Source: Endomychus coccineus
Taxonomy: Eukaryota; Arthropoda; Insecta; Coleoptera; Endomychidae
NCBI GenBank assembly: GCA_958510875.1
Contig: OY294070.1
Coordinates: forward strand, 3,534,001 to 3,598,000
DNA length: 64,000 nucleotides
Direction: 5' to 3'
A program made the position numbers and the translations under genes. Of the stretch, positions 8,656 through 56,130 are shown piece after piece. Every line of letters starts with the position of its first letter. The stretch's first letter is position 1. The notes beneath the pieces are model-generated. The model was not told where the DNA came from. It saw nothing but the letters and a program-made list of their open reading frames with translations, and did no database searches.

Positions 8656-9596
8656 AAGCAGAATCAGTAAGCAGGTACTTTATTTCCCTTCACACATTTG
8701 GTCAACACTACAATAAATTACATTTGAAATTACAAATAATGTTCATTTGAACACATTGAAGACCTACTTCACCCGACTCTAATGGCGGACCTTGAATCAT
8801 TTCTTTCTTAACGTGAACAGCGTTTAGTTAATTTGCCACAGAAATTTCGCTGATATTGGTAACATTACAAACTTGTACGTACATTTATAAGCAAGTCCAA
8901 ACAACACATTTGCCCTTCAGACTTCGTACTGATAACGTAATGAAACAATAACGTATCATCTTACTTGACATGACGAGCCTGACAACTGAAGCGTAGGTGT
9001 CGAGAAAATTAAATCGACGACAGGCGAGGATAGATAGTTGTTTTTGTATCCTACGTGTTACGTATACGTTATACGGGATCCATACACACAAGATCCAAGG
9101 ATCCGTCTGTACTCTGAAATTCCATTCTCCAGCATTGTAACCAAGCAATGCATATGCAGGAGACGTGCCAGGCAGTCGTCTTTTAGCCTGGTGCGAATCC
9201 GCCCCTTCCTGATTAAGTCTAATATTGTAATTAAGAGTCGACTTGTATCTGCTTGAGACGACCGACATCCCCACATAACCTCCTTGCATATTGTTAACAC
9301 AAAACCCATAGAATAACTCATAATATTACAAGAGCCATTCGCGACGGCTTCATACGGCGCCGAAAGAAATGGGAAATGGAAATGGGTTCCTACACTAAGA
9401 CCTAAGGATTATCTAAGAGACCGTAAGGAAACTACTTCGTTTGTTTATTATTTCATACTTTAAAGGGATATTACATTATCAAGTACAATTTTCTTCAATG
9501 TAAAGAGAATTAGAAACAAATGAATATATGAATATACTCATTCATCTCATTTTGGTTTTCACCAGATAATGATGATAGTGTTTCTAGTCCACATCG
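8656..9596. other. No gene recognised; repeat sequence at 9495-9596
   Basis: Open frames at 8885-9321 overlap on both strands and show no domain. From about 9495 the sequence is the downstream flank of the hammerhead family, read on the minus strand. It matches 42365-42440 inverted, and part of it matches 13010-13070. Confidence 0.45.
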
Positions 9597-9690
9597 ATCA
9601 GTAATGTCAGAAACGTATAGTTCCAGGCAGCTGTTTCGCACTTCTCATAGCGCTCATCAGTGGAACGAGCAAGTTCGCTAATCGACCATA
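9597..9690 (-). ncRNA. Hammerhead ribozyme, degenerate copy
   Basis: Read on the minus strand, GTTCCA (9666-9661) is followed by CTGATGA (9660-9654). A GCGC/GTGC stem II encloses an 8-nt loop. Then come GAAAC and AGCTGCC, and finally TGGAAC, which pairs perfectly with GTTCCA as stem I. The order is that of a type I hammerhead. The cleavage triplet is GCC (plus 9626-9628) instead of the GTC in the 42.3 kb copy, so the U needed next to the cleavage site is lost and the copy is probably inactive. Flanking DNA downstream is shared with the 42.3 kb locus. Confidence 0.7.
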
Positions 9691-9836
9691 ACATGGTAAA
9701 AACACCAAAATATCCAACGATCTAAAAAGTTTGGAGAGCTGTTGGTTTTCTATCTTCAAGATAAATTCTATACTCTATTCTACCTAAAATAACCTCTTAA
9801 CATTATAAAGACGCATGTACGAATTTGCAAGGTCTT

Positions 9837-12040: not shown

Positions 12041-14545
12041 CTAGCCGCAACATATCCTCTTCTGACGTCACGATCGAGCGCCCAGGCCTTATGTAAATAG
12101 AGGGTATTGGTGTAGACGATTGTTTAGCGGATATAAATGATAATATCATTCAAACAAATAAAGTACGCCATTAGACATATCGAGTTTGTACTATACTCCA
12201 TCAACACAGTGTATAAATGAGTGATGATTTTTGTTATGAAAACATTTGTAGGAAAGCTAATGTTATGTTGAAAACCAAATATCACATATCAGTCGAGGAA
12301 AGCAGATAGCACTTGAAAGATATCACATTGCCGTAATACTTGGAGGCTATTTTGAGACAAAAAATCATAATTAGAAGCTACAAACACAGGCGGCAAGCCA
12401 TAAATCGTACACCGAGATGTAAGGAAATGACGAATAAACATTCGCTTGTCTTTGAAAGCAGATGCTCGCGCGTCCTCCTCGGCATCTAGGTGAACTCGGG
12501 CGCAGGCGGCGGCATCGTTTAAAACAAAAGAAGGCAATAAAAATTCCGCGTCACTAACGTCAAAACAAACATTAAATTCGTGGATTCGTAATTGGTGCCG
12601 AAGGGTATGTTGCCTCACGTTTTTTAGCTTAAGAGATTTATGAAACTAGACTATACGCGAGTGAGACGTCGTCTCTCCGGTGCTCCGGAGAATTTTCCAA
12701 GTTTAAAAGATCAAAATAACACATTCAAATTAACTATGACTCGGTCGGAATTAGATGTGACAGATAAAAGACACACAACAGCGTCTTTCACGAATGTGTA
12801 ATGGCTTATTTGTTGTTCATTTGCCGTAAAGCTGTAAACATATGTTATGATGGCTTTCCATTAAAGAGTTTGATGGCAGTGTAATAGAATAATAATATGT
12901 TGAAATTTAACGTTATCTCCCTTAGAGTAATTCTGGATTCTCTTGAGACATTGAACAATAATAATTTTATATGTTGATACCTTGATTACGACTAGAAACC
13001 TGTGAGGGAATCAGAAACAAATGAATATATGAAATATACTCATTTATCTCATGTTGGCTCTTGTTGTATGTTGGCGTGAGTCAGAAGCATTGTATTGCTT
13101 TACAACATAAAGTAAAACGCTACCATGTATTTGGAGGGATGGACCTGGTCACATGTTGTACGATGCGCCCATTTACTTTTTACAAACTTAGACAAAATGA
13201 AATATCCATTTCCTAAGTTAATTCGTTTCATAATATAATGGTATAAAATTCGAATTAAAACACTTTGCTTTCGAATGAAAGTTCAAGGCGGTGGCCAAAC
13301 CATTTTGCGGGAAAGATGAGCCTAATCTAAATTCGATATAATATAATAGAATATCCTATTTAGAAAAATGTATGTTACAAATTCGATATCTCGGTAACTA
13401 AGAGATCAAGTGTTGGTTGAGTTTCGCATTTTAATGCTGGATAATGTGTTAAAAATAAATTAGAAAATTTCCGATTGAATCCGGTGATATGCGAGTAAAA
13501 CCGAATAAAACAATTTCCATTAGAGGACACGTTTTTTTACATTGAAAAGGCAAATGGGGTGCAACTAAGGATCACGATCGAACGTGCAGACCTTGTGTTA
13601 TAGAGGGTACCGACCTGACCGTAGCCGCTGGTTTTTCTCACGAACGCATTTTCTCATAAAATTACGATTGCATTTTAAAATTATTGGTCGTATGATAATT
13701 GAAAACATTTGACTAGGCATTACAGAGTTTAGAATCATGCTATTGAGGAAAGATATCGTTCACTCATTTGTGTCTACGCAGCTTTCAATATCAAATCAAC
13801 AAACGAGTTCGACCAATATAACGTTGCCCCGTATGACAGATAGCAAATTCACGCAATGTCAATCGACAAGACCTTGTGTAGCGTATTGTTTTCGAAATAT
13901 GGTCGAGAAATTCCAAGAAACAGAAACGAGCATGCAGCCAAAGGACGGGGGAACCCATTACGTCAAAGTATTAGTTCTGTCCGGACGGACGGAGAAAGAT
14001 AAATTCGTGAACGTCTCAAACAATTACTGTCGCGCCCGCCTTTTGAAACCCTAACAAGTAAAAGAGAAAAATTTACAATGAAGAAAACAAAAACGAGGCC
14101 GCGCGATCCGTGGACGGTGACTGATACAGTACTGACTCGACAAACAACTGAACATTATTCAAAATGTCAACGCCAACATCGATCCCCGGCAGTGTGTTCG
14201 TTGCAGGAATTCGACTACAATAACTCGCTTAATAATCTAGCAGGGTTTCGAACAATGCGGCCCCGCATTCAAATAAAACGAAAGAACCCACTTCCACCGT
14301 CGTTTTTCTGGCGGAAATTCCTCTGAGCACAAATTCATTTTATAATTATTTTAATCACAGCGTTCGCCAAATATTTAAATACGCTATCAGTGCGCCCCGC
14401 GTTTAATATCGAAAGACTTCCTGAACATTTTTGTCGCTACAAGCTTCCCGTAAAATTGCGTCGTTTGAAAGAAACTCCACGGATTTTATTGCCTGTAATA
14501 AGCCAACGCCCCTCCAAATACATCGATGCAGCTAATAAAGGAGAA
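12041..14545. other. No gene recognised; small repeat pieces
   Basis: Sequence at 13010-13070 matches the flank of the hammerhead family (9495-9550). Sequence at 13535-13605 resembles 11960-12115. Three open frames at 13737-14578 on the plus strand (105, 82 and 62 codons) are GC-richer and consecutive but have no domain, signal peptide or splice-site pattern I can support. Confidence 0.4.
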
Positions 14546-31722: not shown

Positions 31723-32877
31723 CTAATTATTCGTAATATTTATTGTAAATGTACAATTTGATGCATTATGTAAATTTATAGCGGAAGCCAGCATATTTTT
31801 TGAAGATGGCTGATTTCCTGAAGAAGAAGGTAACTCGGGCAATACATTATCGAAAGAAATCGAATGTGCAGGCACAGGCATCAAATCGTCGCCGATCGAT
31901 ATAGACGTGGATGATTCTAAAATGCACCCGGAAGACGATGTAGTGTTCAAATTGAGAATTTTGTTGGACATTTCTTTTTTTCGATTGGTGGAGTCTTCTA
32001 AATACCCCTCTGCAACTGAAGTCGATTTCCATCCTCCTAGGCGTTTGGTATTAGTTATACCCACACCACAGTCAGCAAGTAAAGTGGCTGAGGAACGCCT
32101 GAAGCTGTGACCAGTGTAAAGCTCTGGATTTTGAAGGCGCAGATATACTGCTATTTCGGAGGGTATCTTTCCTATGGTATTGATTCCTACACATTGCACA
32201 GTACATTTTCCACTTTTGTAATACAAGAATAAACGACGGTGAGGAGTCTCTTTTGGACGTAAATGTACATAATTTCTGTATACGTTCAAAAAATAACCAT
32301 CATTTGCTTCTTCAGATATCACGAAGGATCTAGAGGAATGATTTTTGGAATCCTTGATATTAACAATTATCAGGTTTTCTTTGTCGTCTATGTCGTCAAT
32401 GGTGAGTTTTGTCAGCTCTTCTCGTTTGCAAGCACCAGCTAATCCAAAAATTGCTACTAACTTAATCATGAGGTATATGTCATCGGGTGCTTCAGTCATA
32501 AATTTTGAAACGTCTTCTTGAGTGAAGATTTTGGCCTTTTTCGGTCGAAAACCGACATTCTGTTTTTTAATGAATGCAGTTATTTTGTAAAATTTGCTAA
32601 TATCCAAATTTTGCTTTACTTTGAATACACTCTTCAACATTGAATATCTTGCCCATAAAGTGTTCGGCTTCCATGTTTTAGACATTTCTAGAAAATAAGC
32701 CAAGAATACTTCTTCTTTATTTGGTGTTTTCACTTTTTTATTGTTGCACCATTCAATAAAACTCGTGTATTGCTTCTCATACCTTTGTTTAGATTTCGTT
32801 GGCAATAACTCTAAGTTCGCATCTGTAGCTGCTTGCACGATTTCTTGTGGAAGTTCTTCATCAGATGAATAATCCAT
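31723..32877 (-). CDS. Tyrosine recombinase (Crypton), intact 384 aa
   Basis: The protein starts MDYSSDEELPQEIV and runs uninterrupted to the stop at 31723-31725. The N-terminal 110 residues resemble the core-binding, SAM-like domain (YEKQYTSFIEWC, then NTLWARYSMLKSVF). The catalytic domain keeps every expected residue: Arg152 in CKREEL, a Lys at 175 or 178 (NIKDSKN), His257 and Arg260 in GHSFRRS, Trp283 in LGGWKS and the nucleophile Tyr292 in AEGYLED. The C-terminal 90 residues are Ser/Asn-rich and probably disordered. The first ATG is used because upstream sequence is non-coding. It would cut and rejoin DNA at the element ends in the nucleus. This is the best-preserved enzyme in the window. 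Confidence 0.88.
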   Translation of the reverse strand: MDYSSDEELPQEIVQAATDANLELLPTKSKQRYEKQYTSFIEWCNNKKVKTPNKEEVFLAYFLEMSKTWKPNTLWARYSMLKSVFKVKQNLDISKFYKITAFIKKQNVGFRPKKAKIFTQEDVSKFMTEAPDDIYLMIKLVAIFGLAGACKREELTKLTIDDIDDKENLIIVNIKDSKNHSSRSFVISEEANDGYFLNVYRNYVHLRPKETPHRRLFLYYKSGKCTVQCVGINTIGKIPSEIAVYLRLQNPELYTGHSFRRSSATLLADCGVGITNTKRLGGWKSTSVAEGYLEDSTNRKKEMSNKILNLNTTSSSGCILESSTSISIGDDLMPVPAHSISFDNVLPELPSSSGNQPSSKNMLASAINLHNASNCTFTINITNN

Positions 32878-42195: not shown

Positions 42196-42255
42196 CTTTG
42201 ACTTGTATATTTCTGCCAGATGGAAAGGATCCTACTAATAAGGTATTTCTAGTAC

Positions 42256-42370
42256 AGATCTATCAGTAACGTCACAAACTTATAGTTTGGTCGTTCCACT
42301 GATGAGCTCTATAAGGCGAGCGAAACAGCTGTCTGGAACTATAAGTTTGTGACGTTACTGATCGATCTGG
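42256..42370 (+). ncRNA. Hammerhead ribozyme, type I, complete core
   Basis: All parts are present in order. Stem I is GTTCCA (42294-42299) pairing with TGGAAC (42335-42340). The core CTGATGA is at 42300-42306. Stem II is GCTC (42307-42310) with GAGC (42319-42322) and an 8-nt loop. GAAAC follows at 42323-42327. A minimal stem III has AC/GT and loop AGCT, and the cleavage triplet GTC is at 42332-42334, so cleavage would fall after C42334. Beyond an internal loop on the 5' side, 42256-42285 pairs with 42341-42370 with one mismatch. The short stem III (palindrome ACAGCTGT) suggests it works best as a dimer, as reported for retroelement hammerheads. Confidence 0.88.
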
Positions 42371-42551
42371 ACTAGGAAGACCTCATCATTATTTGGCAAA
42401 AGTCAACATCAGATGAATGAGTTTATACTGTTATGATTTCAACAAACATAAAACATAATTGTAAATATATATTTTACCGAGAGATTAAAAATATAAAAGT
42501 TAAAAAAGGAAGTGATATGGAATGAAAACGTTATTTAAAAGTTATGTTATA

Positions 42552-44752
42552 CAGGGTGTCCTCGAACTGCGGGGCCAAAACAAAACCGAAGATTCTTTGA
42601 TTCGAAAAAAAGTTGATGAGCCTTTTTACTTTTGCCTCAAGTGTCTTGTTTACCCGGTAGAGGGCTTCAAAATTGCAAAAATAATTTTGTTTTTTCGGTA
42701 TAACTAGAGAACGTGATGGAGAACTTTTACAATATTTAGCAGGTGAGTTACTGTCAATAATGGCAATTTTTGAGAGTGGAGCACAGAGCCTTAGAGACCA
42801 TAGAAATGGCTCAAACTTGAGGATGTAACGGGAAAAGTGTCCAGAACTTTTTTGTGGTCAATGTAATTCACTCTATATTTTTTATGTAGATAGCTCATCT
42901 AATTTGAAAACTTTTCTTAATCTTAGAAAATTTTGATAAAATCAACGGATTAGCTTGAAAAAATTAATTTTCGAGTCTCTGCAATTTTGGCTTACTTACT
43001 TGATTAAAATACCTTAGTTGCCTTTGCTTTTCTAATGTCATTTTGGCATTTGAAGAATTTATTCTCAAAACTGTCAGCTTTTACTTTGCTTTCCGTAAAA
43101 ATTTTATAAAATTATGGCTCAAAATTTCACTAACACTGAAATGGTTGATATGTTATTGATTTATGGACTTTGTCGTTGCAATGGCCGGAGAAGGGAAAGA
43201 TATCCGCATCGCAGAATTCCAAATCGGCAAACCTTCGCGAAACTGGCAAATTTGAAGCAAATCGCAGAGAAACTGGACGCAGACGGACAAGAAGGACGTT
43301 AGAGCTCGAAGAAGCGATACTGGAAGCGGTTGAAACTGAACCTGGGATAAGCACACTACGTTTGGGACTTCGTATTGGAGCCTCAAAATCATTAGTTCAT
43401 AATGTACTGAAAGAAGAACTGTTGTATCCCTATCATATTAAAACAGTTCAAGAGTTATTGCCCATGGATCCAGGTCATCGGCTAGATTTCTGTAATCAAA
43501 CCCCAATTTTTGTAGAAGAATTCTGTTCACGGTCGAAGATACTTTCACGAGATGTGGTCTTTTTAACCTCCATAATGAACATTTCTATGCTGATGAAAAT
43601 CCTCATGAAACGGAAGTTACATATTTTCAGAATCAAACTAAAATCAATGTTTGGGTTGGAATTGTGGATAACTTTATTATTGGCCCTACCGTTATACCCG
43701 ATCGATTGAACGGGGAGAACTACTTGAACTTTTTGGAACAAAGGCTACTTGAACTGTTGGAAGACTTGCCCTTACACATTCGTCGTGGCCTGGTTTATCC
43801 ATGATGGTGCACCTCCTCATTTCACATTAGCTGTGAGGCGACATTTGAATGCGAAATATCCAGATCGCTGGATAGGTAGAGGACACGATGCACCAGTGAA
43901 CTGGCCGGCCCGCTCCCCTGATTTGACGCCCTGCGACTTCTTTCTATGGGGCGCTTTGAAGGCGAAAGTTTATGCAGCTCCAGTAAACACACGAGAGGAA
44001 TTGTTGCAACGAATTAATCATGAAGCGGATTTATTGAAGAATGATCCTGAAGTACTAGCCAGAGTTCAATCCAATTTCTTGAAACGAATTAATTTGTGTA
44101 TTCAGGAAAACTTCGAACAATTGATGCCTTAGCGATTTCTCAGAAAGTTTTGTTGTTTCTTTTAATTTAACATTTGTTTTTCCTAAATAATAACATCGTT
44201 TCCCCATTTCTATTGTTTTTATAATTTTTACGGAAAGCAAAGTAAAAACTGACAGTTTTGAGAATAAATTCTCCAAATGCCAAAATGACATTAGAAAAGC
44301 AAAGGCAACTAAGGTATTTTAATCAAGACTCGAAAATTATTTTTTTCAAGCTAATCCGTTGATTTTATCAACATTTTCTAAGAGTAAGAAAAGTTTTCAA
44401 ATGAGATAAGCTATCTACATAAAAAATATAGAGTGAATTACATCGACCACAAAAAAGTTCTGGACACTTTTCCCGTTACATCCTCAAGTTTGAGCCATTT
44501 CTATGGTCTCTAAGGCTCTATGCTCCGCTCTCAAAAACGGCTATTATTAACAGTAACTCACCTGCCAAATATTGTAAAAGTCCTCCATCACGTTCTCAAG
44601 TTATACCGAAAAAACAAAATTATTTTTGCAACTTTGAAGCCCTCTACCGGCTAAACAAGACACTTGAGGCAAAAGTAAAAAGGCTCATCAAATTTTTTTC
44701 GAATCAAAGAATCTTCGGTTTTATTTTAGCCACGCAGTTCGAGGACACCCTG
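42552..44752 (+). mobile_element. mariner-superfamily transposon with about 540-bp inverted repeats
   Basis: The element begins CAGGGTGTCCTCGAACTGCG and ends with its complement CGCAGTTCGAGGACACCCTG. TA duplications flank it at 42550-42551 and 44753-44754. The inverted arms, about 42552-43110 and 44215-44752, match with few differences along their whole length. The central kilobase holds one transposase gene on the plus strand. Arms this long are unusual for mariners, which mostly have about 30 bp. The arms' close match suggests either recent activity or gene conversion. Confidence 0.9.
43114..44132 (+). pseudogene. DUF4817/mariner-type transposase, frameshifted
   Basis: The start MAQNFTNTEMVDMLLIYGLC (ATG at 43114) is the DUF4817 N-terminal domain. 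After a frame change near 43240 it reads ETGKFEANRRETGRRRTRRT and STLRLGLRIGASKSLVHNVL, a helix-turn-helix. The catalytic part, after another shift near 43530, contains EDTFTRCGLFNLHNEHFYAD and TKINVWVGIVDNFIIGP. A last shift near 43790 gives FIHDGAPPHFTLAVRRHLN (Asp 2) and RSPDLTPCDFFLWG (third Asp). The protein would be about 340 residues if continuous. Three breaks make it inactive. Confidence 0.82.
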
Positions 44753-46613: not shown

Positions 46614-46677
46614 GGCCTTATGTCAAATATGAGTTATAAAAATTGAATGTGGTGCATTGATTGATTTCTATTTACAG

Positions 46678-46695
46678 TGGCGCCCAACGTGGGGC
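46678..46695 (+). other. Orphan tRNA-Lys primer binding site of an LTR retrotransposon
   Basis: TGGCGCCCAACGTGGGGC is the exact complement of the 18 nt at the 3' end (including CCA) of animal tRNA-Lys(CUU). It stands one base after TTTACA, a normal LTR end. The downstream sequence has no gag or pol reading frame, and no intact LTR start was found upstream. It is the remaining junction of a largely deleted LTR element. Confidence 0.7.
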
Positions 46696-46939
46696 CTCTT
46701 GCGTCAGTCTTCTGCTTCTCCCGCCATCGGATTGACATACTTAGCTTGGGCTACCAAACTACAGAGGTCGAGGTTGTTTATTTCCAAGATTAAATATCTC
46801 ATCGGAATAATAAATAACCATTAAATAAAATTATTAACGTCCAAACGTTACAAGTGGGACATCTATTCATAGATGGCGTGAGACATTTCGTTCTTTTCAC
46901 TACGTGTTTGGCTGGTTTTGACTTCCTTCAGCAGATATC

Positions 46940-47010
46940 CTCCAGTAACGTCGAAAACTTGGGCATGTTCCACTGAGTAGCTTCAGCTAACTAGCTCCTA
47001 TGTCGTAGGG
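46940..47010 (+). ncRNA. Hammerhead family relic, 5' half
   Basis: CCAGTAACGTC followed by GTTCCACTGAGTAGCT resembles 42266-42310 (CAGTAACGTC, GTTCCACTGATGAGCT). The core is altered (CTGAGTA) and no GAAAC/GTC half follows in register. Inactive. Confidence 0.45.
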
Positions 47011-55989: not shown

Positions 55990-56130
55990 TAAAATGCCGC
56001 CGCGGCAACACTGCCTCTGCCGGAGTGGTTGATCAGTGACTTCATCGTCTGCCTCGTTTCACTGAAGAACTTATGAGGAGATCGAACAGCTGTCTGGAAC
56101 TAATAGACGGGCTGTCACTGTTCAACCTGA
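55990..56130 (+). ncRNA. Hammerhead family relic
   Basis: GTTTCA precedes CTGAAGA (56072-56078), then CGAACAGCTGTCTGGAAC ends at 56100. GTTTCA can still pair with TGGAAC using one G-T wobble, and the GTC triplet survives. GAAAC has become CGAAC and stem II pairing is poor, so activity is unlikely. Family membership is clear from AACAGCTGTCTGGAACTA, shared with 42324-42342. Confidence 0.55.

Follow-up and report, generated by a model that had tools for sequence, protein, structure and literature searches.

The window, by which we mean the whole stretch of 64,000 nucleotides of Endomychus coccineus DNA that was analyzed, carries a type I hammerhead ribozyme at positions 42293-42339, and this motif is genuine, with a full core, three helices, and a cleavage triplet. 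In order, it consists of GTTCCA, CTGATGA, GCTC...GAGC, GAAAC, AGCT, GTC, and TGGAAC, with adjoining pieces sharing bases. The ribozyme sits within a larger inverted arrangement, and the features of the locus are as follows, with unit positions referring to the 394-bp repeat unit described below:

42238-42286, minus strand: antisense arm, unit positions 53 to 5, a reverse-complement copy of the 3' flank of the element itself, which supplies the 5' strand of the outer stem (93% in the mosaic alignment to the 394-bp unit)
42255-42284, plus strand: 5' side of the outer helix, 30 bp with 42340-42369 and one mismatch, at 42261 (sequence reading; fold)
42287-42426, plus strand: sense arm, unit positions 348-394 and then 1-96, containing the ribozyme and its 3' flank (mosaic alignment, 92%)
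42293-42298, plus strand: 5' strand of stem I, GTTCCA (sequence reading; Rfam Hammerhead_1 alignment)
42299-42305, plus strand: core CTGATGA (sequence reading; Rfam Hammerhead_1 alignment)
42306-42321, plus strand: stem II, 4 bp formed by GCTC (42306-42309) and GAGC (42318-42321), with an 8-nt loop (sequence reading)
42322-42324, plus strand: core GAA, i.e., G12, A13, and A14 (sequence reading; Rfam Hammerhead_1 alignment)
42325-42332, plus strand: self-complementary ACAGCTGT, with a 2-bp stem III (42325 with 42332, 42326 with 42331) and an AGCT loop (sequence reading)
42333-42334, plus strand: predicted self-cleavage position, between C17 (42333) and T (42334) (from the sequence and the Rfam alignment)
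42334-42339, plus strand: 3' strand of stem I, TGGAAC, with 42334 being unit position 1 (sequence reading)
42340-42369, plus strand: 3' side of the outer helix (sequence reading; fold)

Direct reading of the sequence recovered the individual pieces named in the original prediction, namely CTGATGA, the 4-bp stem II, GAAAC (42322-42326), the GTC triplet (42331-42333), and the perfect 6-bp stem I (42293-42298 with 42334-42339). The invariant core, which it had called complete, held up base by base as well as in the alignment to Rfam Hammerhead_1, and the minimal stem III that it described proved to be a 2-bp helix with a palindromic loop in a hammerhead of type I. Its cleavage point, after 42334, was one base off, as the position lies after 42333 and the 5'-OH would be expected at 42334. 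The covariance model search that had been suggested as a check was positive in one respect and negative in another: Hammerhead_1 (RF00163) matched 42293-42339 over the full model with 33.4 bits and an E-value of 6e-07 in 221 bases, sharing the core, the three helices, and the cleavage triplet, but this score is below the gathering score of 34, and a search at the gathering threshold accordingly gave no match in the 64-kb window. In an E-value scan of the full window, the entry for this hammerhead was Hammerhead_HH9 (26.9 bits, E 0.018). The predicted fold includes an internal loop in stem I together with the stem II hairpin loop, while the consensus of the family to which the ribozyme belongs has a stem II of 5 bp with a 6-nt loop, versus 4 bp and 8 nt in the window copy. 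Judged from its sequence, the window hammerhead is plausibly cleavage-competent, and two molecules could share an 8-bp helix via the palindromic ACAGCTGT at 42325-42332. Newt satellite ribozymes likewise have a very short helix III.

The 30-bp outer extension with one mismatch that had been described around the ribozyme is present at 42255-42284/42340-42369, and the fold extends this helix further out. The fold of 42250-42375 lies 10.6 s.d. below 200 shuffles, largely because of this long outer stem. The stem is nearly perfect because the segment 42238-42286, which includes bases absent from the normal 5' flank, has replaced the normal 5' side with the reverse complement of the 3' flank. In the family consensus fold, the 6-bp stem I and the internal loop are already followed outward by a helix of ~20 pairs, some of them wobble pairs. 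The near-perfect 30-bp stem of the window copy is the product of an insertion rearrangement. Forcing the hammerhead fold has a calculated cost of 7.4 kcal/mol in the window copy versus 4.4 in the consensus, so that the replaced 5' arm mildly opposes the ribozyme fold. The window copy is a head-to-head insertion whose right end is truncated: it stops at unit positions 53 and 96, the latter (the right end) at neither of the two sites preferred by the family, and an abutting-repeat test found no flanking duplication (p 0.59). The original prediction regarded the locus as separate from other elements; it is instead one truncated copy within a dispersed retroelement family of its own.

Additional family pieces occur at four other places in the window, none of which is inverted (a 32-base match at 1022-1053 was set aside as a simple ATTT repeat):

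9496-9724, minus strand: second family copy, whose hammerhead has the cleavage triplet GCC (mosaic alignment; weak HH9 match, 25.4 bits)
12996-13063, minus strand: family fragment, unit positions 67-135 (mosaic alignment)
46853-46982, plus strand: family fragment, unit positions 241-369 (mosaic alignment)
56053-56102, plus strand: family fragment around the ribozyme, unit positions 351-394 and 1-8, with stem II and GAAAC altered (mosaic alignment)

The surrounding DNA has 24 reading frames of ≥110 aa. The ten that were scanned with Pfam yielded three RVT_1 pieces, Exo_endo_phos, Transposase_1, hAT, Phage_integrase, and one MADF, with two frames matching nothing. Pieces of the MADF and mariner types are in keeping with an arthropod host, and probably an insect. 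A mariner element had been placed close to the ribozyme, and this remains plausible by eye from a DDE-like frame at 43749-44132, but Pfam gave no match there or in 43170-43709. The Phage_integrase (tyrosine-recombinase) domain (E 3.8e-09) belongs to an uninterrupted 384-aa frame at 31723-32877 on the minus strand, which presumably derives from a Crypton- or DIRS-type element. In three places, one and the same sequence of ~200 bp is fused to unit position 241 at an identical junction, once in the window (46655-46870) and twice at locus L014 (1767-1946 and 3781-4001), where the two copies are ~2 kb apart. Near these L014 copies is what we take to be a primer-binding-site-like stretch, and the ~200-bp sequence is perhaps an LTR-type element that captured a piece of the retrozyme. 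A short match at locus L026 (91-1484) is found nine times, for the most part with a period of 171 bp, indicating that a 171-bp tandem repeat lies next to the element.

When the 906-Mb genome was searched at the DNA level, at least 92 aligned pieces were returned, obtained from 40 scored places out of 2986 first-look places, with matches on five contigs of 38-306 Mb (C1, C2, C3, C5, and C6). The 40 loci that were fetched, including that of the window (L048), contain 65 stretches homologous to the ribozyme plus its 3' flank. From these, the consensus unit is 394 bp, counted from the base 3' of the cleavage site, and it stands head-to-tail. It has a GC content of 39%, its fold lies 7.4 s.d. below 60 shuffles, and 63 aa is the length of its longest reading frame, the joints of three joined units included. 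A jumping alignment found eight unbroken arms longer than one unit, spanning 440-881 nt (L010, L013, L017, L021, L028, L037, L042, and L044). When 50 kb was sampled at five arbitrary places independently of the query, one further element was found, which is not inverted; this suggests a very high copy number, of which so small a sample permits no estimate. An exact scan for a 24-base ribozyme stretch found none in bacterial, archaeal, or viral contigs, although such hosts say little here. When the 39 other loci were scanned with Rfam at the gathering threshold, the only passing match was a diverged relative at L047 (2910-2955, minus strand). This second hammerhead exceeds the gathering score with 39 bits and has GAAACAGCTGTC in common with the family, but its stem I is GTCTCA/TGAGAC versus the GTTCCA/TGGAAC of the family, i.e., two base pairs are changed on both strands, and it probably represents a sister family. 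Three individual copies should also be mentioned. One at L053 (6435-6851) makes one full circuit of the unit, from 41 to 43, and a piece covering 39-71 comes after it, which fits a circular or oligomeric template. One arm at L025 (2649) stops at the hammerhead cleavage point and one copy at L010 (1688) starts at unit position 2, each as if from a cleaved RNA template and each a single case.

The inverted arrangement of the window copy is a recurrent form in this family. We defined elements as clusters of mosaic segments of ≥20 bases with gaps of ≤60 and ≥120 aligned bases, dropping smaller clusters and permitting a 300-base gap by hand at L038, and obtained 47 elements at the 40 loci (window included), 27 inverted and 20 in a single orientation, a ratio in which the inverted share is inflated because the query held the inverted junction of the window copy. 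All 27 inverted elements are arranged head-to-head. The 3' ends of the elements are concentrated at two sites, with 23 of 74 falling at unit positions 44-66 and 35 of 74 at 118-141 (peaks at 57 and 130; these classes were set after inspecting the data), and in the consensus the words at the two sites are alike, CTTATCATT and CTTACATT. In 18 inverted elements both ends fall within these classes, and 17 of them combine an end near 57 with an end near 130 (random-matching p 0.0003), the exception being L047 with two ends of the 57 class; the remaining nine inverted elements, the window copy among them, have at least one end outside both classes and were left out of this count. The single-orientation elements end at 130 in 11 cases, at 57 in two, and elsewhere in seven. 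Separately, seven of these 20 copies begin at unit positions 215-242 (L014, L018, L020, L024, L026, L032, and L043), some of them at a word, AATGT...ACATT, mirroring the 130 end.

Many of the inverted elements are also flanked by short direct repeats. Abutting duplications at p≤0.05, relative to a control of 1495 cross-pairings, were found for 13 of 27 inverted elements and 2 of 20 single-orientation elements; in an earlier and looser test, which did not fix the place of the repeat, 7 of 27 inverted elements reached p<0.05 (four of them p<0.01), as did 2 of 20 single ones. The clearest examples are TATTGTTACTTG (L011), ACAATTCTATA (L013), TCAAACATAGTCA (L016), and TGTAACCAAAAAT (L038), of which up to a few bases may be element-derived. 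As the duplications embrace both arms, the most natural reading of an inverted pair is a single insertion. The insertions favor AT-rich sequence, given that the first 10 flanking bases are 73% and 77% AT at the two kinds of end versus 64% in the loci. We see no way in which the query bias would create the one-of-each ends or the duplications; an unbiased set of copies would be needed to show so. Microhomology at the inverted junctions averaged 2.3 versus 0.6 in a crude permutation (p 0.0002), a result that we do not build upon, since only 9 of 27 junctions were scorable and all were placed by the aligner. Likewise, we give no weight to the fact that junctions cluster at the ribozyme, since a junction of this kind was part of the query.

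The alternative that each head-to-head pair represents two independent adjacent insertions or a recombination product can draw upon the several family pieces within one 64-kb window, as chance neighbors do occur. However, such events are hardly reconcilable with 27 of 27 pairs being head-to-head, with ends near 57 pairing with ends near 130, and with duplications flanking the whole pair in 13 of 27, and we rejected this as extremely improbable. Inverted arms with short flanking duplications would also be expected of a fold-back or inverted-repeat DNA transposon (MITE-like) that carries a hammerhead by chance, but here the arms are unequal in both length and end position, 20 of the 47 elements have a single orientation, some arms contain multiple units, and both outer ends are 3' ends of the unit, so that this too was rejected as very improbable.

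The family is an old burst, with its regions being 6-12% off the consensus. At the 11 core positions the divergence is 5.9%, compared with 7.0% for the ribozyme as a whole and 7.2% for positions 7-57, and it reaches 10.6% in 216-323 and 12.2% in 324-353. The lower values at the ribozyme are no sign of selection because the query favored that part. Private variants common to different loci make up just 0.033 of changed sites, as expected for a burst from near-identical sources followed by independent decay. These values also bear upon whether the window locus might be a stand-alone ribozyme gene under selection, for which the intact core of the window copy would speak. The core is equally intact in 27 of the 54 family units covering the 11 scored core positions, which means that the window copy is not special, and core divergence is close to that at positions 7-57. 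The existence of the family and its decay thus leave a selected gene scarcely credible.

The family closely resembles the metazoan non-LTR retrozymes, for which Cervera and de la Pena (2020; PMC7229834) name insects among the hosts. As described there, these have a type I hammerhead, a unit of 150-450 bp arranged head-to-tail, GC below 50%, no coding capacity, strong self-pairing, and target-site duplications longer than 4 bp. The present family has a unit within that size range arranged head-to-tail, is non-coding with low GC, and has duplications of >4 bp when they are present, which excludes the window copy; its copies differ in being mostly short and truncated. The very short helix III is shared with the axolotl retrozyme hammerheads covered in the same study, one class of which also has a palindromic loop and whose cleavage is improved by dimers, but the sequence and host are different and dimer formation here is only predicted. 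In the portions of that study that we consulted, we did not find a recurrent head-to-head form with two alternative end sites described, and the word 'inverted' is absent from the main text; head-to-head retrozyme insertions were similarly unreported in the literature that we consulted, of which our coverage is incomplete, and we claim no priority. The same source considers Penelope elements a strong candidate for retrozyme mobilization on the grounds that the two kinds of element co-exist and have type I hammerheads and a tandem arrangement in common, and a curation guide states that metazoan retrozymes may depend on Penelope elements. The original prediction was right that hammerheads of this kind are known from Penelope-like and related retroelements.

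The likeness to Penelope-like elements extends to the form of the insertions. According to the rotifer Penelope study (PMC3846280), these elements have inverted pseudo-LTRs (pLTRs), one of which may carry a tail at its 3' end, and several insertions are flanked by duplications of 8-10 bp, which one family lacks. The lizard PAc enzyme (PMC11167929) cuts and extends both strands at AT-rich sites and has two internal RNA start sites, the stretch between which constitutes the tail, while its ribozyme is dispensable for insertion in vitro. Our family has the same inverted head-to-head repeats, a tail on one arm, short duplications, and AT-rich targets, with the window copy exhibiting these traits in part, and its hammerhead is similarly close to an internal region where reverse transcription would start. 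Unlike Penelope-like elements, there is no coding region in the 394-bp unit, the equivalent of the tail (unit positions 58-130) is 73 bp rather than 30-40 bp, and helix III of the ribozyme is 2 bp long and closed by a palindromic loop. As the head-to-head form, the pairing of ends, and the duplications all match published Penelope traits, they point to Penelope-type machinery. It is therefore probable that the window copy is a decayed fossil of a non-autonomous, non-coding family of the metazoan retrozyme type, inserted by such machinery, with the Penelope enzyme itself inferred. Several observations run counter to this: the window copy has neither a duplication nor a right end (96) at one of the two sites, inversion is absent from the one element found independently of the query and from all four other family pieces in the window, and PAc insertion is independent of ribozyme cleavage (PMC11167929). 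In addition, a duplication is absent from some of the rotifer Penelope insertions that have inverted pLTRs (PMC3846280).

A related reading is that the family is not a retrozyme and instead represents pseudo-LTRs, either solo or truncated, that derive from an autonomous Penelope-like element of this genome and have lost its coding part, which would entail the same ribozyme and insertion mode. A ribozyme in a terminal repeat, tandem and inverted repeats, a tail, and duplications are indeed all features of Penelope pseudo-LTRs, and an ATG overlaps the CTGATGAG core here, much as the PAc frame begins just past the core, at stem II (PMC11167929). On the other hand, a stop is found by eye 16 codons after this ATG in the consensus, three joined units contain no frame longer than 63 aa, and the multi-unit arms pass from unit to unit with no coding part in between. 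Penelope hammerheads are also minimal, lacking helix III or loop contacts, according to a review, whereas the ribozyme here has a 2-bp helix III. We consider the pseudo-LTR origin rather unlikely, and retain a retrozyme-type family inserted by Penelope-type machinery as our preferred explanation.

As for how that machinery might generate the copies, the sequence itself displays the ribozyme motif and the family with its tandem unit, together with the duplications, the head-to-head rule, and the pair of end sites, and a possible series of events can be built around them. Oligomeric transcripts would be cut by the hammerhead, perhaps as dimers via the palindromic stem III, to provide a unit-length or possibly circular RNA template, and reverse transcription would start inside this RNA at one of two sites, near unit position 57 or 130. 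If both ends of the cut target were primed, two cDNAs would meet head-to-head, creating an antisense and a sense arm as well as a short target-site duplication. We tentatively suggest, at somewhat less than even confidence, that a Penelope-type enzyme starts cDNA at 57 and 130, one per end of the cut target, and that the cDNAs are joined head-to-head, often across stem I. It should be noted that PAc in vitro has no start-site difference between strands (PMC11167929) and thus does not explain the one-of-each pairing. In an alternative that differs in mechanism only, the head-to-head copies may have arisen by self-priming (snap-back) rather than by priming from both target ends, as has been proposed for such palindromes in rotifer Penelope elements (PMC3846280). 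Junctions are often near the stem I inverted repeat, as self-priming would have it, though the query favored such junctions, but there is no obvious reason why self-priming should yield unlike outer ends (57 versus 130) in 17 of 18 elements. The arms of a single element share 28 of 749 changed sites (0.037) versus 0.033 between unrelated loci, a comparison that cannot separate the two mechanisms, while same-orientation units within one element share 32 of 484 (0.066), 21 of which come from L033 alone. Self-priming is a serious but doubtful possibility.

The mover of animal retrozymes is unproven, and Penelope-type insertion scars are present in copies of this family. With such scars, the proposal that Penelope elements are the mover becomes countable in any genome with retrozymes, and the one-of-each rule for the two end sites provides a specific, testable constraint upon Penelope-type insertion. 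If two-ended priming is true, it would identify the mover of animal retrozymes and would supply a single mechanism for both the tail and the inverted repeats of Penelope elements.
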